Assembly (NCBI RefSeq): GCF_900184965.1
Contig: NZ_FXYA01000002.1
Coordinates: 1-64,000, forward strand
Length of the DNA: 64,000 nucleotides
Source of the DNA: Akkermansia muciniphila
GTDB lineage: Bacteria; Verrucomicrobiota; Verrucomicrobiia; Verrucomicrobiales; Akkermansiaceae
Direction of reading: 5' to 3'
Positions 2 through 7,237 of the stretch are shown here, piece after piece. Each line of letters begins with the position of its first letter. Within the stretch, counting starts at the first letter, position 1. The translations under genes were made by a program, and so were the position numbers. Below the pieces are notes generated by a model. That model was not told where the DNA came from and ran no database searches. It saw only the letters and a program-made list of their open reading frames with translations.

Positions 2-331
2 TATACGGCCGCCCCCGGCTACCTGATCCAGTCGGACGTGCTGGCGGTGCTGGGCAACATCCTGACGACGCGGGACGATACGTTTACGGTGCGCGCCTAC
101 GGGGAGCTGACCAACCGCGAAGGGGTGGTGCTGTCGCGCGCGTGGTGCGAAGCGGTGGTGCAGAGGGGGATCAACTACGTGGATCCGGTGAACAGCCCGG
201 AAACTCCTGCCCGGAAGGTCAACATGAAGAGCGGAGCGCTGGAGGATACGGAGCTGAGCGCCGTGAACAAGGCGTTTGGAAGAAAGTTCAATATCGTCTC
301 CTTCCGCTGGCTGTCCCCGGAAGAAGTGTAG
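2..331 (+). CDS. C-terminal fragment of a Verru_Chthon cassette protein A-like protein (5' end outside window)
   Basis: The frame is already open at base 2 and ends at a TAG at 329-331, so only the last 109 residues are present. The first in-frame start-like codon, a GTG at 38, is internal. The segment reads APGYLIQSDVLAVLG, then TRDDTFTVRAYGE, SRAWCEAVVQR and finally FNIVSFRWLSPEEV. From memory, this is how the long A protein of the Verru_Chthon cassette ends. That cassette is a Verrucomicrobia-specific gene set associated with type IV pilin-like proteins. The function is unknown. A terminator hairpin follows 30 bp downstream, so this is the last gene of its unit. The family call is by recognition and should be tested with the full gene. 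Confidence 0.55.
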   Translation, partial: YTAAPGYLIQSDVLAVLGNILTTRDDTFTVRAYGELTNREGVVLSRAWCEAVVQRGINYVDPVNSPETPARKVNMKSGALEDTELSAVNKAFGRKFNIVSFRWLSPEEV

Positions 332-360
332 CAAAGGGAGCGCGTTCCCATTCCGTTTCA

Positions 361-395
361 CGCCGCTTTTCCTTTCCCGGGAAAGCGGCGCTTTT
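361..395 (+). terminator. Rho-independent terminator after the Verru_Chthon-like gene
   Basis: A 9-bp perfect stem, CGCCGCTTT paired with AAAGCGGCG, encloses a 12-nt loop and is followed by CTTTT. It lies 30 bp after the stop codon on the same strand. The T run is short. Confidence 0.6.
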
Positions 396-1069
396 GCGTC
401 CGGAGAGCGGGGGAAGATATCAGGGCTGGATGAACGAAAGACGATTTTCCCCTGTTCCGGGGATAGTGGGGCTTTCTTCCCTTTTCCCCCTGCTTTGGAC
501 ATCTTCGGGAGTTTCGATAAGCCCGGGAAAAACCGGATCGACTTATTGAATACGGAGCCGACGTTTATTTCCTTTTAAGTTCAACAATAGCTCCGTAATG
601 CAACACATCAAATTCGGCCGGGGCAATTTCAACAAGCAGTTTCATATGCTCCTGTTCCCATACGGCCGTTTTCCTGAAATTCAGCCCCTGACCTGCATGG
701 ATGATCTGCGCCGCCTCTCCGCGCAACTAACCACAAACCTTCTTATCCGCGCGGCCGCCGTCCAGGCATTTGCTCCACCACGCATGGATAAGACTGACAT
801 TTGATGATGCTCCTTGCCTATATCCTTTCCTTAAAAAAGAAATCCCATTGTCTTTAGGAATTTTATCCCAGGCATCCCTACTTTGAGCTTGCACGGACAT
901 CTTCATTCATGTACTTCACAAAGGATATCAAAACTATTGGAACCATCAGCGCACGCTGCTGCACGGTTCAATGGATTTTCCCTCCGCCTTTTTCCCGCGC
1001 GGTTATCCTCCAAGGGTCACTGCCGGGGAAACCAAAACACTCTTTTCCTCATTCCACTTCCCAAAATAT
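396..1069. other. Long intergenic stretch without a convincing gene
   Basis: About 670 bp lie between the terminator and the start of the next gene. Several short open frames exist on both strands. One is a 59-codon ATG frame on the minus strand at 727-906 (QAQSRDAWDKIPKDNG near its start). None has a clear ribosome site or a recognisable motif. The stretch may hold a decayed gene. I see no tRNA-like cloverleaf. Confidence 0.4.
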
Positions 1070-1882
1070 ATGCGTATTTTACCCCTCCTGGCCTTTACCT
1101 GCCTTTTCGGAAGCATCTCCTTCGCCCAAGGACAAAGCCGCGCATCCTCCAGGCCGGAACCGGCCCAGCCGGCGGCCAATGCCCCGGCGTCCGATACTGT
1201 GGACAAATCCCTGTCCCCCGCCGCCGTCAACGGCATCCGGTTCGTCCTGAAGGAGCCCATGTCTCTTCCTTCTCCCATTTACATGCCTATTGATTCCAAA
1301 AGGCTGGAAAAAGTGGAAATCCGCGCCGCCCTTCCGGGACGCCGCAGCGTTTACCCCAGGAGCAAGATCATTACCCTGTTCGGTGGCCTGGACCAGAAAG
1401 GCATGCCGACCGATAAACTCGTCAGCAAGCCCCTGCCGGCCGATCTTGGCTCCAAAACCCTGGCTCTGGTGGGCAAAAACAGTAAAGGGGAATTGACGCT
1501 GGATTTTATTAATGAGTCGGAATTGCCGCTGAACTGCGTTTACATCCAGAACCTGACCGGCCGCACGTTCACCCTGGAGCTTCCCAAGCCTCCTTCAGGA
1601 GAAAAGAGCGCAATCGAACTGCCCAGCAAGTCCACTTACATTTTCGGCAAGAATGCCACAGACAGCAGTATTTCCCGCACTACCCCCGCCAATTTGACGT
1701 ACATGACCCGTTTGAAGAACGGCAAAGTCGTCAAGGTGAAGGACAGAGGCATGATGCTGACGACCTACCCGGGACGAAAAGTAGTCATGATTATTTCCCC
1801 GGATTCCACCGGGCGCACCGTCGTTTTGACGGAATTGATGATTTTCAAGGAAAGACCGGGGGCAGCTTCCTCAGACAAGTAA
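1070..1882 (+). CDS. Secreted protein of unknown function
   Basis: This 270-residue protein begins at the ATG at 1070, because the next residues form a classic signal peptide (MRILPLLAFTCLFGSISFAQ) with likely cleavage after AFA/FAQ. The longer in-frame start at 971 would put an unlikely extension ahead of it. After a Pro/Ala-rich linker (residues about 25-45) the body is beta-rich. Basic-aromatic stretches such as GRRSVYPRSKIITLFGG and a late YPGRKVVMIISPD can be seen. There are no catalytic motifs, transmembrane helices or known domains. It is expected to be periplasmic or outer-surface. It stands alone, with a terminator hairpin 64 bp after the stop. I do not recognise the family. Confidence 0.75.
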   Translation: MRILPLLAFTCLFGSISFAQGQSRASSRPEPAQPAANAPASDTVDKSLSPAAVNGIRFVLKEPMSLPSPIYMPIDSKRLEKVEIRAALPGRRSVYPRSKIITLFGGLDQKGMPTDKLVSKPLPADLGSKTLALVGKNSKGELTLDFINESELPLNCVYIQNLTGRTFTLELPKPPSGEKSAIELPSKSTYIFGKNATDSSISRTTPANLTYMTRLKNGKVVKVKDRGMMLTTYPGRKVVMIISPDSTGRTVVLTELMIFKERPGAASSDK

Positions 1883-1945
1883 GTTCTCTTCCAATATCCG
1901 GGAAGCCGGAAGCGGCTCTTGAGCATATCCGGATTATTCAGAAAA

Positions 1946-1974
1946 ACGGGCATTTCTGCCCGTTTTTTATTTCT
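1946..1974 (+). terminator. Rho-independent terminator after the secreted protein
   Basis: ACGGGCA, loop TTTC, TGCCCGT, followed by TTTTTTATTT. A run of A also precedes the stem, so it could work in both directions, although the opposing gene ends about 270 bp away. Confidence 0.8.
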
Positions 1975-2242
1975 CGTTTTGCTTCCCCAGCCGCTACTGA
2001 TCGAGGGAATAAACCACTCCGGACATTGTTCCGGCACGGGAACAACGCCCTCCATATTTCCCGCGGCTCCAATGCGGCAGGCGGACTGTTCCTGACGCCG
2101 GAAACGGTTCCCGCAAAAAAGCCAACGGAACCCCAATAGGGAGACAGGGCATTCCGCCTATGCTCCCATACGAAGAAAGAGGTCCTGAAGCCAGACGGTT
2201 CGCCGGAAGGTTCACTCGTTGCCCTCCGGCATCCGGGCAGGC
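1975..2242. other. Intergenic spacer between convergent genes
   Basis: The spacer lies between the terminator and the end of the minus-strand protease-like gene. Only short overlapping frames without start signals are present. I see nothing functional in it. Confidence 0.4.
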
Positions 2243-3415
2243 TTAATAAACTTTGGGCACCAGGCCCTGACGGCTCATCTTATCTTCCACTTTTCGCCGG
2301 TTTTCCTCCAGACGCCGGGCGTCATAGGAATCATCCACAGGCTGGGCCTCCGGAATGTTTTCTCCGCGTCCCGCCTTGTATTGCTGCACCTGCGGGAGCA
2401 CTCCTTCCACCAGTTCCCTGCATATCCAGGAAGGCAGGATATAGGTCTCCGTGCGTCCGGCCCGGCTCAGGGCCAACCCCACAAATTTTCCGTTGACGTC
2501 AATGACCGGGCATCCGGCCCGTTCCGGGAACAAGGTCATGTCCGACTGGATGACCAAAGGGAACTCATCCCTTTTCAGGCTCATCCGGTTGCCCATGGAG
2601 TTCATCATATCAAGGCGCTTTTGCGGGAATTTCACCACTTTGGGCCTGGGCCCCGTGAGGAGTTTTCCCTCCACCACCTGGTTCCGCCGCCTCACTTCCA
2701 CGGGAACCGTCTCACCGGGACGCACCCCGACCATGGCGGCACGGATGGAGTACATTCCGTCCACCGGCTTTCCATTCAGCTTCATCAGCACATCGCCGGC
2801 CATCAATCCGCTGCGGTGCGCGCCGCTGCCGGCTTCCACGCCGCCTATCATGACCCCCTCCCCGTCCCAGCGGGGATCGGAAACGATGCCGAGATAAGGC
2901 TGGTCATCCGCCCTCAGGCTGCGCTGGGCCACGGAAACGACTCCGAAGTCGCTAACATGCCCCGTGGGCGATACGGCTGCAATCACGTCCCCTTCCTTCG
3001 CCTGCACATAGGAATTCAAGTCAATGGGAGGAGCGGGAAGCCCCGGCACATCCATCATCAGCAGATCATGCTCCGGAAGGGCAAAGAGCACCTTGGCGTC
3101 ATAAACCCGCCCGGAAGAATCCACCAGCATGACCGGACGCCGCTCCTTCTGGAGATCGCTCAATTTGGTGAGGACCTTTCCCTTCCCCACAACCGTTCCC
3201 AAAGCCACCTGGGTATTGCCGGCAACCAGCGCCACCACGGACTGCCCCACCGGAACAGCCACTTTGTCCCATTCCCGGAAAATCTCCTTGGCCTGGCTGT
3301 CCAGCACGCTTTTGTCCTCCGGCGCAATCATCTGGTCCGGAGGCAGGGGAGAAGCTATTTCCTGGGCACACGCGGAAGCCGCCGCGAATGCCGCCCATAA
3401 ATATTTCATCATCAT
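2243..3415 (-). CDS. Degenerate HtrA-like protein with PDZ domain, probably proteolytically inactive
   Basis: 390 residues with an N-terminal signal peptide (MMMKYLWAAFAAASACAQ). Residues 50-125 resemble the first trypsin-like barrel, but the position expected to carry the catalytic His reads VLTKLSDLQ, with no His. An Asp remains in PEHDLLMMD (about 117). A PDZ-like domain spans about 174-253. The stretch that normally holds the catalytic Ser (usual form GNSGGPL) comes after the PDZ as PERAGCPVIDVNGKFVGL (about 298-314), with Ala at the Ser position. Known HtrA proteins place the PDZ after a complete protease domain. The start overlaps the end of the intact HtrA gene by four bases (ATGA), so the two are probably translationally coupled. 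An inactive partner, substrate-binding or regulatory role is inferred. Confidence 0.8.
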   Translation of the reverse strand: MMMKYLWAAFAAASACAQEIASPLPPDQMIAPEDKSVLDSQAKEIFREWDKVAVPVGQSVVALVAGNTQVALGTVVGKGKVLTKLSDLQKERRPVMLVDSSGRVYDAKVLFALPEHDLLMMDVPGLPAPPIDLNSYVQAKEGDVIAAVSPTGHVSDFGVVSVAQRSLRADDQPYLGIVSDPRWDGEGVMIGGVEAGSGAHRSGLMAGDVLMKLNGKPVDGMYSIRAAMVGVRPGETVPVEVRRRNQVVEGKLLTGPRPKVVKFPQKRLDMMNSMGNRMSLKRDEFPLVIQSDMTLFPERAGCPVIDVNGKFVGLALSRAGRTETYILPSWICRELVEGVLPQVQQYKAGRGENIPEAQPVDDSYDARRLEENRRKVEDKMSRQGLVPKVY

Positions 3416-4464
3416 CCTTGAGTTTGTTCCTGGTATTTCAGGCCGGACATCAGGTCGCCGCGCCTGCCGAATGTAAGATCCGCCTTGTAAGCCGTACCTT
3501 TCCTCACTACCACCAAGGGAACGGTTTCCCCCGGACGGTGCCTTCCCAGTTCACGGAGCATATCCCGCACGGAACGCAGGCTCCGGCTGTCCATGTGGGT
3601 AATGACGTCCCCCGGCCGGATGCCGGCGGCATCCGCCGGAGAATTCACCACAACATCTTCCACCACCACGCCGTCCACGCCCAGCACGTCCATCATGGCA
3701 AACCCGAGCACAGGAGATTCGGGGTCCGCCATGGGATGAAGGCCCAGCTGGCCCCAATGCCTGCCGGAGAGCAGTTTGTCCCAGTCTCTCCTGAAAACGG
3801 AAACAGGGACATGGTTGTTGATTTTCAACATAGGGCCAATGGAGGAATGGATGCCAACCAACCTGCCGGACAGGTCAAAGAGGGGACCGCCGGAATCTCC
3901 GCCAATCAGCGTGCATTCCGAAATAAGGAAGCGCTGCTTTCCGTCCGTGCACAATCTTCCCATGCGGATGGGCGCGCGGCGTTCCGGGTCAAATCCCTTG
4001 GAATGGCCCAGAGCCACCACAAAATCCCCCACATGAAGACTGTCGGATTCCCCCAGTTCCACATGGGGATAGTTTCCTCCGTCCATGATTTGCACCATGG
4101 CGGCATCCCGCGTGAAGTTGGCTCCCAGCACCCGGCCCTTGACTACGCGCCCGTCGGCAAAGACCACACGCATGATTTCATCGCCGCCCACTACATGGGC
4201 CGCAGTCAAAATCAGGCCCTGCGGAGTGACAATGACGCCGCTGCCCGTCTCCCCCCCGTCGGAAACCAGAGCCACTGTAGCAGCCGTAACGCTGGAGGCC
4301 ACTTTATGCACATGTTTCTGCAAATCCGCCATGGAAGAAACATTCCCCGCAAGGCCCGCCCCTCCCAACAACAGGGACACAAGCCCCCCAACGACCAAGT
4401 AGCGAAAACTCGTCATTCTCAATAATGATATCATGAAATTACCGATAATCGAATGATAGGACAT
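3412..4464 (-). CDS. HtrA/DegP-type serine protease with PDZ domain
   Basis: A periplasmic quality-control serine endoprotease of family S1C, 350 residues from the first ATG. The catalytic triad is intact: His90 in LILTAAHVVGG, Asp120 in NFTRDAAMVQ and Ser191 in GGDSGGPLFDLSG. One PDZ domain follows (about 240-330; VVVNSPADAAGIRPGDVIT). Residues 20-42 form a hydrophobic signal or anchor segment. Starts at 4434 or 4416 (MTSFRYLVVGG, with a GAGA just upstream) are equally plausible, and 4416 would give a more usual signal peptide. It is the first gene of a pair. The degenerate paralogue follows with an ATGA overlap, so both are likely made together. Confidence 0.88.
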   Translation of the reverse strand: MSYHSIIGNFMISLLRMTSFRYLVVGGLVSLLLGGAGLAGNVSSMADLQKHVHKVASSVTAATVALVSDGGETGSGVIVTPQGLILTAAHVVGGDEIMRVVFADGRVVKGRVLGANFTRDAAMVQIMDGGNYPHVELGESDSLHVGDFVVALGHSKGFDPERRAPIRMGRLCTDGKQRFLISECTLIGGDSGGPLFDLSGRLVGIHSSIGPMLKINNHVPVSVFRRDWDKLLSGRHWGQLGLHPMADPESPVLGFAMMDVLGVDGVVVEDVVVNSPADAAGIRPGDVITHMDSRSLRSVRDMLRELGRHRPGETVPLVVVRKGTAYKADLTFGRRGDLMSGLKYQEQTQG

Positions 4465-4645
4465 ATCCTACTGTATAAACGTTCAAAACGGCAGAATTTT
4501 GTCTATGGATTGCGACATGACGCCTCATCTTTTGCTTAGACCATTCCGGTTATTTATGATAAAGTCCATCCCACGGATGGGGTTAAACGACAAATCAAGG
4601 AAACGACATGACGCCTCCTGGAGGGAACGCATCCAAGATGGAGAA

Positions 4646-7237
4646 ATGTCTTCCCGTTCCCGGACGGAACGCAAAAAAAGGCCCGCTCCCCGTCCATCCT
4701 ACCCCGGGCTGCCGCAGGAAGATCCTGAGCCGGCCGTCATTCCCGGCCCTACCCGCAGAACGGGGAATTCCCGCAACGATCCTTCCCGGTATGACACGCC
4801 GCCCCAGCGACGAGCCTCCCGCTCGTCTCCGAAGGAAGATTTTGAAGACAGTCCGGAAAGAGAAAAAGAAAGCCGTCCCGCGCGCGCAGGAACCATGCGC
4901 AAGCCGCGTTTCACGCTTTTCGGAGCCCTGCTGTTCGTCCTGCTGATGCCGTTCCGCTTCATCGGCTCCCTGACGCGGAATATCCGCTGGTTCATCTGCT
5001 GGCCTCTGCGCATCCTTCTGGGATGCTGCTTCGTCGGCATCGTGATCGGGTCCATCTTGGTGTTCCTTTACGGCGCCATTTCCAACCGCTATGACATTTC
5101 CGAGGTAAAGAGCAACATTCCGGAACGCACGGTGATTCTGGACCGTAAAAACCGCACCATCGGCACCCTGCACGGGGAAAACCGCAAGCGGGTATCCCTT
5201 CAGGAAGTTCCTCCCATTTTTATTGATGCCCTGCTCCTGCGCGAAGACAACCGCTTTTACGACCATGGCGGCGTGGACTGGATAGGCGTGGGTCGCGCCT
5301 TTGCGCAGGTGCTCAAGCACAAGAGAGCTACGCAGGGGGCTTCCACCCTGACGATGCAGCTCGCTAAAATTACGTACAACCACCGGGAGCGCAACCTGCA
5401 TTCCAAACTGACGGAAGTAGCTCTGGCGAAACGCATTGAAGCCACTTACACGAAGGATGAAATTCTGGAGACTTACATCAACCGTATTTTCTGGGGGCAC
5501 ACCTTCCTGGGCATAGCGGCGGCGGCGCGGGGATATTACGACAAGGAACCCCGGGATTTATCCCTGGCGGAATGCGCCACCCTGGCCGGCATTATTTACG
5601 GCCCAAATGACTTCTCCCCCATCAAACACCCGGAAGAAGCCAAAAAAGTGCGCGATATCGTCCTTGGCCTGCTGAAAAACGAAGGCAAGATTACGGAAGT
5701 GCAATATCAGGCGGCCCTGGCGGAGCCTATCGCCACCCGGACGCCCCAGTCCCGGTCTGAGGAGAATTACGCCATGGGGCTCGTGCGCCGGGAGCTGGAC
5801 GCCATTCTGGAGGAAGAAGACATCCGCCTGGGAGGGCTGGTGGTTCACACCACATTGGACCTTGATCTGCAGAACGCCACGCTGGACGCCATCAACAAGC
5901 ACATGGACGCGCTGGAAGCCCGCAAGGATTTCAAGAAGCACCTGGCCTCCCTGCAGGCCAGGCGGGAAAAGAGAGGCATCCTGAAAAACAAGCTGACCAC
6001 CAAGGCGGAATATGAGGCATCCCTGGCCGCCTGGAAGGCGCTCCCTGCGGAACAGAAGGAAAAGACGCAGCCGCCGATGCCTAATTACATCCAATCCGCC
6101 GCCGTAGTCATGGACAATGCCACAGGGGCTCTTCTGGCCGTCGTCGGCGGCCGGGACGCGGAAGAATCCAAGCTGAACCGCGCCATTCAGTCCAGGCGGC
6201 AGACCGGTTCCCTGTTCAAACCGTTCATTTACGCCACGTTTTTCCAGCAGGGCAATTCTGCGGATACCCGCATTTCGGATGACAGGATTGCGTACGGGGA
6301 AATACGCGGAGCCGCCAACTGGTCCCCCCGCAATTCGGACGGAACGTATCGGGGCATGAAGCCGGCCTCCTTCGGCCTCATCCTTTCCCGCAACACCATG
6401 TCCGTGCGCATCGGCAACCGCGCCGGCTTGTCCAATGTCATTCAATCCGCACAACTGGCGGGCTTTCACGGAAATATTTCCCGCACCCCGGCCCTTTATC
6501 TGGGCACGTGGGAAGCGTCCCCTCTGGACATCGCCAGCGCCTACAGCGTTTTTGCCAACGGGGGCGTACGCCCCACGCCATACATCATTGACCATATTAC
6601 GGATTCGCAGGGCCAGCCGCGCTTCGCCATCACCAAAAGCAAGCGCACCGTCTATTCCCAGCGGGCGGCGAACATAACCTCTTCCATCCTCCAGCAGGTC
6701 TGCAAGCCCGGAGGCACGGCAGGAAAAATTACCGCGCTGGGCTTTAAATCCCCCTGCGGCGGCAAAACCGGAACCACGAATAATTATACGAACGCATGGT
6801 TCGCCGGATATACGTCCAACCTCACCTGCAGTGTCTGGGTGGGGTTCGATTCCTCCACCAAAATTCTGGAAAAAGGCTACGGAGGCACCCTGGCCCTGCC
6901 TGTCTGGGTGGATATTATGCTTGCCGCCCAGAAGGAAGGCTATCCCGCCAACGCCATCCGTACGCGTCCCGGTTCGGAAGGGCAGGCCGTACTCGTCTGC
7001 CGGGAATCCAATCAACTGGCCCATTCCGGCTGCCAGTACGCCAAGACTGCGTATTTTGAAACCTCCGCAGGCTACCAGGCCCCCGCCAACATGTGTGAAC
7101 AGCACATTCCCATGGCGGAACCGGATTCGGAAGAAAGCATTCCCTATGCGGAACCGCTGGACGGCAGCGACGATAACATCCCCCTGGCCGAACCCGTGGA
7201 AGAAACGGACGGCATCCCCTACGCCACCCCCATTTAA
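4646..7237 (+). CDS. Class A penicillin-binding protein (bifunctional transglycosylase/transpeptidase)
   Basis: This PBP1-type enzyme polymerises and crosslinks peptidoglycan. A long basic, Pro/Arg-rich cytoplasmic segment (about 1-110) precedes one membrane helix (about 115-145). A GT51 domain follows (EDNRFYDHGG near 199, GASTLTMQLAK). The transpeptidase domain has SLFK at Ser522, an SRN motif and KTGT at Lys707. The acidic C-terminal tail repeats IPMAEP, IPYAEP, IPLAEP and IPYATP. I chose the ATG at 4646 because GGAG lies just upstream, though the spacing is tight. In-frame starts as far up as 4499 are possible. An ATG at 4608 with a better GGAAA site is out of frame. The gene is divergent from htrA, and rmuC follows after 17 bp. 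Confidence 0.93.
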   Translation: MSSRSRTERKKRPAPRPSYPGLPQEDPEPAVIPGPTRRTGNSRNDPSRYDTPPQRRASRSSPKEDFEDSPEREKESRPARAGTMRKPRFTLFGALLFVLLMPFRFIGSLTRNIRWFICWPLRILLGCCFVGIVIGSILVFLYGAISNRYDISEVKSNIPERTVILDRKNRTIGTLHGENRKRVSLQEVPPIFIDALLLREDNRFYDHGGVDWIGVGRAFAQVLKHKRATQGASTLTMQLAKITYNHRERNLHSKLTEVALAKRIEATYTKDEILETYINRIFWGHTFLGIAAAARGYYDKEPRDLSLAECATLAGIIYGPNDFSPIKHPEEAKKVRDIVLGLLKNEGKITEVQYQAALAEPIATRTPQSRSEENYAMGLVRRELDAILEEEDIRLGGLVVHTTLDLDLQNATLDAINKHMDALEARKDFKKHLASLQARREKRGILKNKLTTKAEYEASLAAWKALPAEQKEKTQPPMPNYIQSAAVVMDNATGALLAVVGGRDAEESKLNRAIQSRRQTGSLFKPFIYATFFQQGNSADTRISDDRIAYGEIRGAANWSPRNSDGTYRGMKPASFGLILSRNTMSVRIGNRAGLSNVIQSAQLAGFHGNISRTPALYLGTWEASPLDIASAYSVFANGGVRPTPYIIDHITDSQGQPRFAITKSKRTVYSQRAANITSSILQQVCKPGGTAGKITALGFKSPCGGKTGTTNNYTNAWFAGYTSNLTCSVWVGFDSSTKILEKGYGGTLALPVWVDIMLAAQKEGYPANAIRTRPGSEGQAVLVCRESNQLAHSGCQYAKTAYFETSAGYQAPANMCEQHIPMAEPDSEESIPYAEPLDGSDDNIPLAEPVEETDGIPYATPI

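Follow-up and report, generated by a model that had tools for sequence, protein, structure and literature searches.

In the reviewed HtrA proteases, sensing and cutting are both done by a single homotrimer, and a signal at the PDZ domain activates the subunit that receives it as well as its neighbour (PMC11642142), so that effects in cis and in trans are hard to separate. The MamE/MamO proteins of Magnetospirillum pair an active HtrA with an inactive partner of trypsin fold; MamO promotes MamE-dependent proteolysis, and pseudoproteases of this kind arose independently in three magnetotactic taxa (PMC4794232). The gene pair described here would be a further pairing of the same type, for which MamE/MamO is the closest known case. 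It lies at positions 2,243 to 4,464 of a 64,000-nucleotide stretch of Akkermansia muciniphila DNA (assembly GCF_900184965.1, contig NZ_FXYA01000002.1, positions 1 to 64,000 of the forward strand), which is referred to as the window. In this pair, made up of an active HtrA and a catalytically dead relative that we call pseudo-HtrA, sensing and cutting appear to have been separated by evolution into two subunits.

As in MamO, a degenerate triad is carried by the pseudo-HtrA on an HtrA-like protease fold, but the protein scores 22.6 bits against the NCBIfam MamO model (cut-off 800), Pfam finds no TauE-like transporter or other extra domain in it, its PDZ is nested in the protease, and it is not tied to magnetosomes. 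With DegS, DegP, DegQ and AlgW (HtrA, S1C), which give the best structural matches, it shares trypsin-like barrels and a PDZ of the PDZ_2 type; however, in the aligned HtrAs the PDZ follows the protease, whereas here it sits at loop L3, and the His and Ser are gone. Nested PDZ domains also occur in S41 proteases. CtpB (S41) and SpoIVB (S55) are likewise PDZ-regulated bacterial proteases (PMC6581720), but belong to protease families other than HtrA, and the pseudo-HtrA scores 14.6 against the NCBIfam spore_IV_B (SpoIVB) model, under its cut-off of 305.25. The window's own genome contains a second pair, formed by a PDZ-less HtrA (254 aa) that overlaps a pseudo-HtrA of 339 aa (L039, G000:C116:39168-40870). 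Plant Deg5 and Deg8 form a mixed hexamer. They too are two HtrA paralogs of which one lacks a PDZ, as in that second pair, but the two are presented as proteases, each with its catalytic triad (PMC3640471).

The features of the pair in the window, all on the minus strand, are the following (aa, amino acids; ORF, open reading frame).

3412..4464, minus: active HtrA partner gene, 350 aa, with a hydrophobic N-terminus, a trypsin-like protease domain and a C-terminal PDZ (ORF, Pfam)
4195..4197, minus: codon of catalytic His90 of the active partner (alignment position)
4105..4107, minus: codon of catalytic Asp120 of the active partner (alignment position)
3892..3894, minus: codon of catalytic Ser191 of the active partner, in GGDSGGPLF (alignment position, DNA)
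3475..3714, minus: PDZ at the C-terminus of the active partner, residues 251-330 (Pfam PDZ_2)
3412..3415, minus: ATGA overlap, start of the pseudo-HtrA and stop of the active HtrA
2243..3415, minus: pseudo-HtrA gene, 390 aa (ORF, Pfam, family alignment, AlphaFold2 model)
3155..3169, minus: TKLSD at residues 83-87, the dead His site (TKxSE/D in the family), with Ser at the His position and a new Lys84 two residues earlier
3065..3067, minus: Asp117, the retained triad Asp
2921..2923, minus: Arg165, the end of the strand GVVSVxxR, matched to DegQ R164 and, by spacing, to the L3 Arg178 of DegS
2636..2902, minus: PDZ (roughly residues 172-260), inserted in the place of L3, with one half of the second barrel on either side
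2381..2593, minus: part of the second barrel that follows the PDZ, roughly residues 275-345, with the lowest dN/dS (ratio of nonsynonymous to synonymous substitution rates) of four segments
2507..2524, minus: dead Ser site ERAGCP, residues 298-303, with Ala300 at the Ser position
2453..2467, minus: conserved SRAGR, residues 317-321, family ARxxR (family alignment)

The pseudo-HtrA gene lies downstream of the active HtrA gene on the same strand, and the two have four bases in common (3412-3415), as the ORF coordinates 3412-4464 and 2243-3415 bear out. A first-pass annotation, made from the letters alone, had described this overlap of two HtrA-like genes, the upstream one with a full His-Asp-Ser triad, the downstream one with no catalytic His, Ala for Ser (ERAGCPV) and its PDZ before the Ser-region. 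All these points held on alignment. The active partner contains H90, D120 and S191; it matches the whole Trypsin_2 profile at 74-205 (E 3.8e-26) followed by PDZ_2 at 251-330, thus displaying the HtrA/S1C features tested (triad, trypsin-like domain and C-terminal PDZ). It matches the NCBIfam degP_htrA_DO model with an E of 6.6e-44, yet at 150.5 bits it stays under the curated cut-off of 416.2. The pseudo-HtrA, with Ser, Asp and Ala at the His, Asp and Ser positions, has no catalytic triad although the Asp is retained, nor does it have its PDZ C-terminal to the protease domain. A crude hydropathy test finds an N-terminal hydrophobic stretch in 75 of 109 partners and, among pseudo proteins that are unfused and have a domain start ahead of residue 110, in 67 of 83, the window's active partner scoring 2.47, above the cut-off of 1.8, and its pseudo-HtrA 1.67, just under it; judged by these N-termini, a periplasmic location of the pair is likely.

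The unusual domain order of the pseudo-HtrA was reached from several sides. In Pfam, Trypsin_2 is counted as two stretches (the best at 73-153) and PDZ_2 falls at 173-248, both above the gathering score, with ERAGCPV (298-304) C-terminal to the PDZ. Compared with DegQ (4a8a, phmmer), residues 77-165 correspond to chain residues 73-164 and residues 277-316 to 164-203, two pieces that are adjacent in DegQ, while residues 186-249 fall on its later PDZ; in this single-sequence comparison the two protease pieces are weak (4.3 and 1.8 bits). An 81-row family profile raises them to 66.0 and 30.6 bits in a DegP-like protein, where profile positions 28-129 and 241-297 match neighbouring protease stretches and positions 130-234 match PDZ1 (59.7 bits), the order being read in three chains, that protein and two H. 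pylori HtrA sequences.

Structure prediction, which the first-pass annotation had proposed as a check, gave a model consistent with this order, in which the segment after the PDZ takes up a trypsin-like fold. The AlphaFold2 model, built with 80 relatives, has a mean predicted local distance difference test (pLDDT) of 86.2 and a predicted template modelling score (pTM) of 0.77, and places strands on both sides of the PDZ, at 60-165 and 288-328. With VIA-align, it superposes on PDZ-less DegS (2rce; Z 21.9, 180 residues aligned of a 198-residue chain, root mean square deviation, rmsd, 3.7) through model residues 37-342, and on the protease domain of MamO (5hm9; 173 of 189 residues aligned, Z 21.8, rmsd 2.4) through residues 52-338, with Z values of 20.9-22.2 on HtrA protease domains among the best 50 matches listed. 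Since these alignments run across the PDZ, the second barrel would be completed by sequence that follows it. Both the predicted model and the family profile thus point to a double-barrel fold of the HtrA type. Foldseek also puts HtrAs at the top (E about 1e-14), but at TM scores of 0.25-0.35 and rmsd of 6.7-23, which we ascribe to the PDZ being out of order, and VIA-align was used instead.

The place of the insertion is of particular interest. In DegS, loop L3 spans residues 176-189 and includes Arg178, which like Gln191 belongs to the inter-subunit activation cluster; the PDZ signal moves L3, and Arg178 then contacts the LD' loop of the neighbour, whose active site it helps to switch (PMC11642142). 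The spacing of R164 and Q177 in DegQ equals that of residues 178 and 191 in DegS, and the PDZ of the pseudo-HtrA consequently stands in place of L3. The distance from this Arg to the Ser-equivalent residue is 124-152 residues (median 133) in the pseudo family, versus a median of 20 (to 28) in the partners. The aligned residues of the L3 network are kept, with R in 122/123 and Q in 117/123 members. From its place after the GxN strand, SRAGR may be the start of HtrA loop L2.

The pseudo-HtrA is a constrained family. A first search of 59 genomes, the own genome included, gave some match in 47, many to the PDZ alone, and 33 full-length examples were aligned. The motif NIARxxR, derived from 13 of these 33, served as a family-specific pattern for a scan of GTDB genomes (84,980 species by description), which returned 134 matches; 123 were confirmed as relatives and 80 of them are listed, all with titles of Planctomycetota, Verrucomicrobiota or Kiritimatiellia. 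The counts given for the family refer to 123 distinct members, the window included, which represent two phyla or more and were obtained when 151 loci were collapsed by identity of their core sequence; they are not independent, greedy clustering giving 105, 78 and 47 groups at 90, 70 and 50% identity, and nine loci (L022-L030) whose matches cover the PDZ only were left out. The same domain order sought in other Verrucomicrobiota was present, and the Pfam matches together with this shared arrangement rule out a chance ORF.

None of the 123 members has a catalytic residue at the His position (S 121, N 1, T 1) or at the Ser position (C 78, M 19, A 17, V 7, I 2), while the Asp is kept in 122, as is the Lys two residues before the His position. 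A Gly follows the Ser position in all 123, and the two Arg of ARxxR are found in 121/123 and 123/123. The single member without the Lys has also lost the Asp (Leu/Asn), and the Lys position is Ala in all 113 partners whose His could be read; that one exception suggests that the Lys may have replaced the His as ion-pair partner of the buried Asp. One fusion outside the 123 (L194) has a Ser at the Ser column, as judged by eye, and no His. The nature of the Ser position differs between taxa: with loci grouped by hand from titles and handles, Cys occupies it in 58 of 59 with Planctomycetota or Kiritimatiellia titles versus 20 of 64 verrucomicrobial ones. The Cys columns that accompany this Cys are only partial (27, 16, 8 and 7 of the 78), and we therefore make no claim of a disulfide.

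The association of both genes extends well beyond the window. Among the 123 members, 109 have a partner HtrA directly upstream, nine are fused to it, four are cut by a contig end and one is unlinked. The 109 upstream partners are on the same strand at most 310 bases away, with a 4-base overlap in 18 cases (large negative gaps reflect longest-ORF starts). The triad is intact in all 113 fully readable partners of the 118 linked or fused, the His being read in 113, the Asp in 116 and the Ser in 117; the unread residues belong to four ORFs truncated where the locus or contig ends (L010, L013, L100, L106) and to L108. In this last locus (2-687), the partner HtrA appears as two short ORFs beside an intact pseudo gene, owing either to a sequencing error or to a broken partner.

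At the level of genomes, the first-pass expectation that both genes co-occur was borne out widely, Planctomycetota included. Within the genus, the pseudo-HtrA (E ≤ 1e-10) is present in 15 of 76 genomes, and these 15 are also the ones with a partner ortholog (E < 1e-100); at the partner-search cut-off, genome G013 shows an ordinary HtrA only. The other 61 genomes, nearly all of 1.7-2.8 Mb, have neither, an apparent joint loss or, in some, the result of incomplete assemblies. Fourteen genomes of the genus carry two pseudo copies. In the 387 Verrucomicrobiota genomes, the pseudo-HtrA (E ≤ 1e-30) and a partner-type HtrA occur in exactly the same 37, with 69 copies of each, 67 of the 69 on the same strand in the order partner-pseudo; the partner cut-off, at least 225 bits, was set after seeing the score gap (225.6 vs 192.8), and copy numbers are lower bounds since the best 5-7 candidates were scored per genome. 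At E ≤ 1e-20 with another profile the genomes number 39, the two extra being PDZ-only matches. There are two exceptions in arrangement: in G279 both proteins form one ORF in reverse order (L194), and in G056 they are on different contigs, the partner being retained and 49% identical to that of G050. In Planctomycetota, 50 of 294 genomes contain a pseudo-HtrA (E ≤ 1e-30) and all 50 a listed partner, a softer count, as there is no clean gap in partner scores and the partner list joins rows above 200 bits with two lower ones (G503, G637) that fit a known pseudo-HtrA, which favours pairing. Of the 56 copies there, obtained from 73 rows by manual collapsing in which a second piece of an ORF was merged with the first, 49 are adjacent or fused, six apart and one within a three-domain ORF (L184).

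Natural fusions add to this picture. Beyond the nine, the fused ORFs comprise L174 and L186 (a single gene), L177-L183, L185, L194, L195 and the odd L184, and they are seen in both orders, reversed in L194, which supports a physical partnership. Between the halves of the dead protease there are two PDZs in L177 and L178 and four in L185 (in whole proteins, Pfam counts four PDZ_2 stretches in L177 and five in L185); these three are very long Planctomycetota fusions with tandem PDZs, L185 spanning 253-3681. L184 (547-2958) is one ORF with three protease-like stretches, the first degenerate, the second triad-like and the third dead. The model of one natural fusion (L113, 758 aa, 23 paired rows) has a pLDDT of 82.5 and a pTM of 0.69, above the 0.45-0.5 or so that we would expect for freely floating halves (our own estimate rather than a computed value), which suggests a defined packing of the predicted halves. 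VIA-align of this model falls mostly on its active part and is uninformative about the interface. A mixed alignment (A4) was discarded, as its consensus and invariant columns showed that pseudo-only rows had been aligned to the active part of the fusion.

The pseudo-HtrA is under purifying selection. Over ten loci of the genus (45 non-independent comparisons, Nei-Gojobori), its median dN/dS is 0.058 and that of the partner 0.082; within the pseudo-HtrA (42-44 comparisons), the values are 0.050 for the first barrel part, 0.047 for the PDZ, 0.008 for the segment after the PDZ and 0.031 for the tail. In a FastTree phylogeny of a random 45 pseudo sequences (PDZ removed), 43 partners and eight ordinary HtrAs of Verrucomicrobiota, each group forms one clade (supports 0.998, 0.999 and 0.883) and the partners stand apart from the eight ordinary HtrAs at 0.999, indicating that the partner is a distinct HtrA subfamily. 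In this sampled tree, which is unrooted and silent on the HtrA from which the pseudo family descends, there is no sign of repeated origins of that family within the partner subfamily. A mirror-tree correlation of r = 0.866 over 115 pairs lends weak support, because the permutation control keeps the shared species tree.

As for the neighbourhood, a gene for a penicillin-binding protein (transglycosylase/transpeptidase) lies divergently from the HtrA pair at 4499-7237 (plus strand), and a 303-aa ORF at 971-1882 (plus strand) gives no match in Pfam or NCBIfam at E ≤ 1.

Taken together, a partnership of pseudo-HtrA and active HtrA is strongly supported, and the first-pass idea of a pseudoprotease subunit tied to the active enzyme gains from the fold model, the co-occurrence and the fusions in both orders. 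The reading that we favour, and regard as rather probable, is that of a two-part HtrA, in which a dedicated regulatory subunit, the pseudo-HtrA, would attach to its HtrA and relay PDZ signals to it. The product of the upstream gene would be the cutting subunit, and that of the downstream gene a non-catalytic HtrA subunit whose protease fold would have been kept as a binding scaffold, its dead site rebuilt around the new Lys-Asp pair and its PDZ sensor carried in place of loop L3. The pseudo-subunit would bind the partner in the manner of an HtrA neighbour, and a ligand on its L3-embedded PDZ would switch the partner on or off in trans. For direct binding, the direction of control, the ligand, the Lys-Asp contact, the periplasmic location and the allostery, this scheme is what we infer. 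A dead partner that promotes HtrA proteolysis has a precedent in MamO, with a different mechanism. More tentatively, some Verrucomicrobiota and Planctomycetota may possess a split HtrA with separate blade and sensor, in which one, two or four PDZs in L3 would signal only in trans and the near-invariant Cys at the dead Ser site of Planctomycetota may add a redox or thiol-binding input. Several observations weigh against the two-part scheme. MamO acts on MamE through its C-terminal transporter domain, not through its protease domain (PMC4794232); a partner without PDZ (L039) and a variable number of PDZs in the pseudo-HtrA mean that one L3 mechanism may not fit all cases; R277, after the PDZ, also aligns to DegQ R164, leaving two Arg for one HtrA Arg; and the alignment behind the L113 model is shallow, at 23 rows. 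Nor is linkage absolute, given the six Planctomycetota copies away from their partner, and three Planctomycetota genomes have a partner-like HtrA (200-206 bits) with no pseudo match at E 1e-30. Finally, a paralog-quartet test of joint descent agrees in 29 of 52 cases, many quartets having near-zero signal and some, such as that of the window genome and G051, conflicting, so that joint duplication of the pairs is not shown.

The main rival, which we think rather unlikely, is a substrate adaptor, whose PDZ(s) and dead cleft would bind clients and pass them to the partner with no allosteric switch. The two or four PDZs in the insertions of L177, L178 and L185 are what extra client-binding sites might give, and next to the PDZ-less partner of L039 the pseudo-HtrA could supply the sole PDZ; yet the insertion is at the L3 position throughout the 123 members, a site that a plain adaptor would not need. 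The protein could instead have been repurposed for a stand-alone function (metal, ligand or envelope binding) and be merely co-transcribed with the HtrA, as the repurposing of the MamO protease domain for metal binding (PMC4794232) and the few genomes with unlinked genes would allow, but equal copy numbers over 37 genomes, fusions in both orders and the retention of both genes when unlinked make this improbable. An enzyme with an altered centre, the Cys at the Ser position acting with the new Lys as base, would draw on the 78 members with that Cys, among them 58 of the 59 loci titled as Planctomycetota or Kiritimatiellia, and on the Lys84 of 122; as Met, Ala, Val or Ile take the position in the other 45, with Ala in the window protein, and as the joint loss of Lys and Asp suggests, from one case only, a structural ion pair, we regard it as very improbable. 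The loss of catalytic residues might finally recall a decaying duplicate of the upstream HtrA, an idea with next to no credit left when dN/dS is lower than in the active partner and reaches its minimum in the very barrel segment that holds the dead Ser; a decaying pseudogene is ruled out by these values and by the conservation across the family.

A description of the pair was not found in the open-access literature among the matches listed, a search to which subscription papers and preprints were external, nor in the extracts of PMC6411480 (a PDZ survey), PMC6581720 and PMC13271334. With the two-part HtrA, a pseudoprotease family would be known far outside the magnetosome cases, and the natural fusions in either order offer one-chain versions for its study. 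The whole of the data suggests that, in some Verrucomicrobia and Planctomycetes, an HtrA usually stands beside or fused to a dead look-alike, as a protease split into a cutting and a sensing part.

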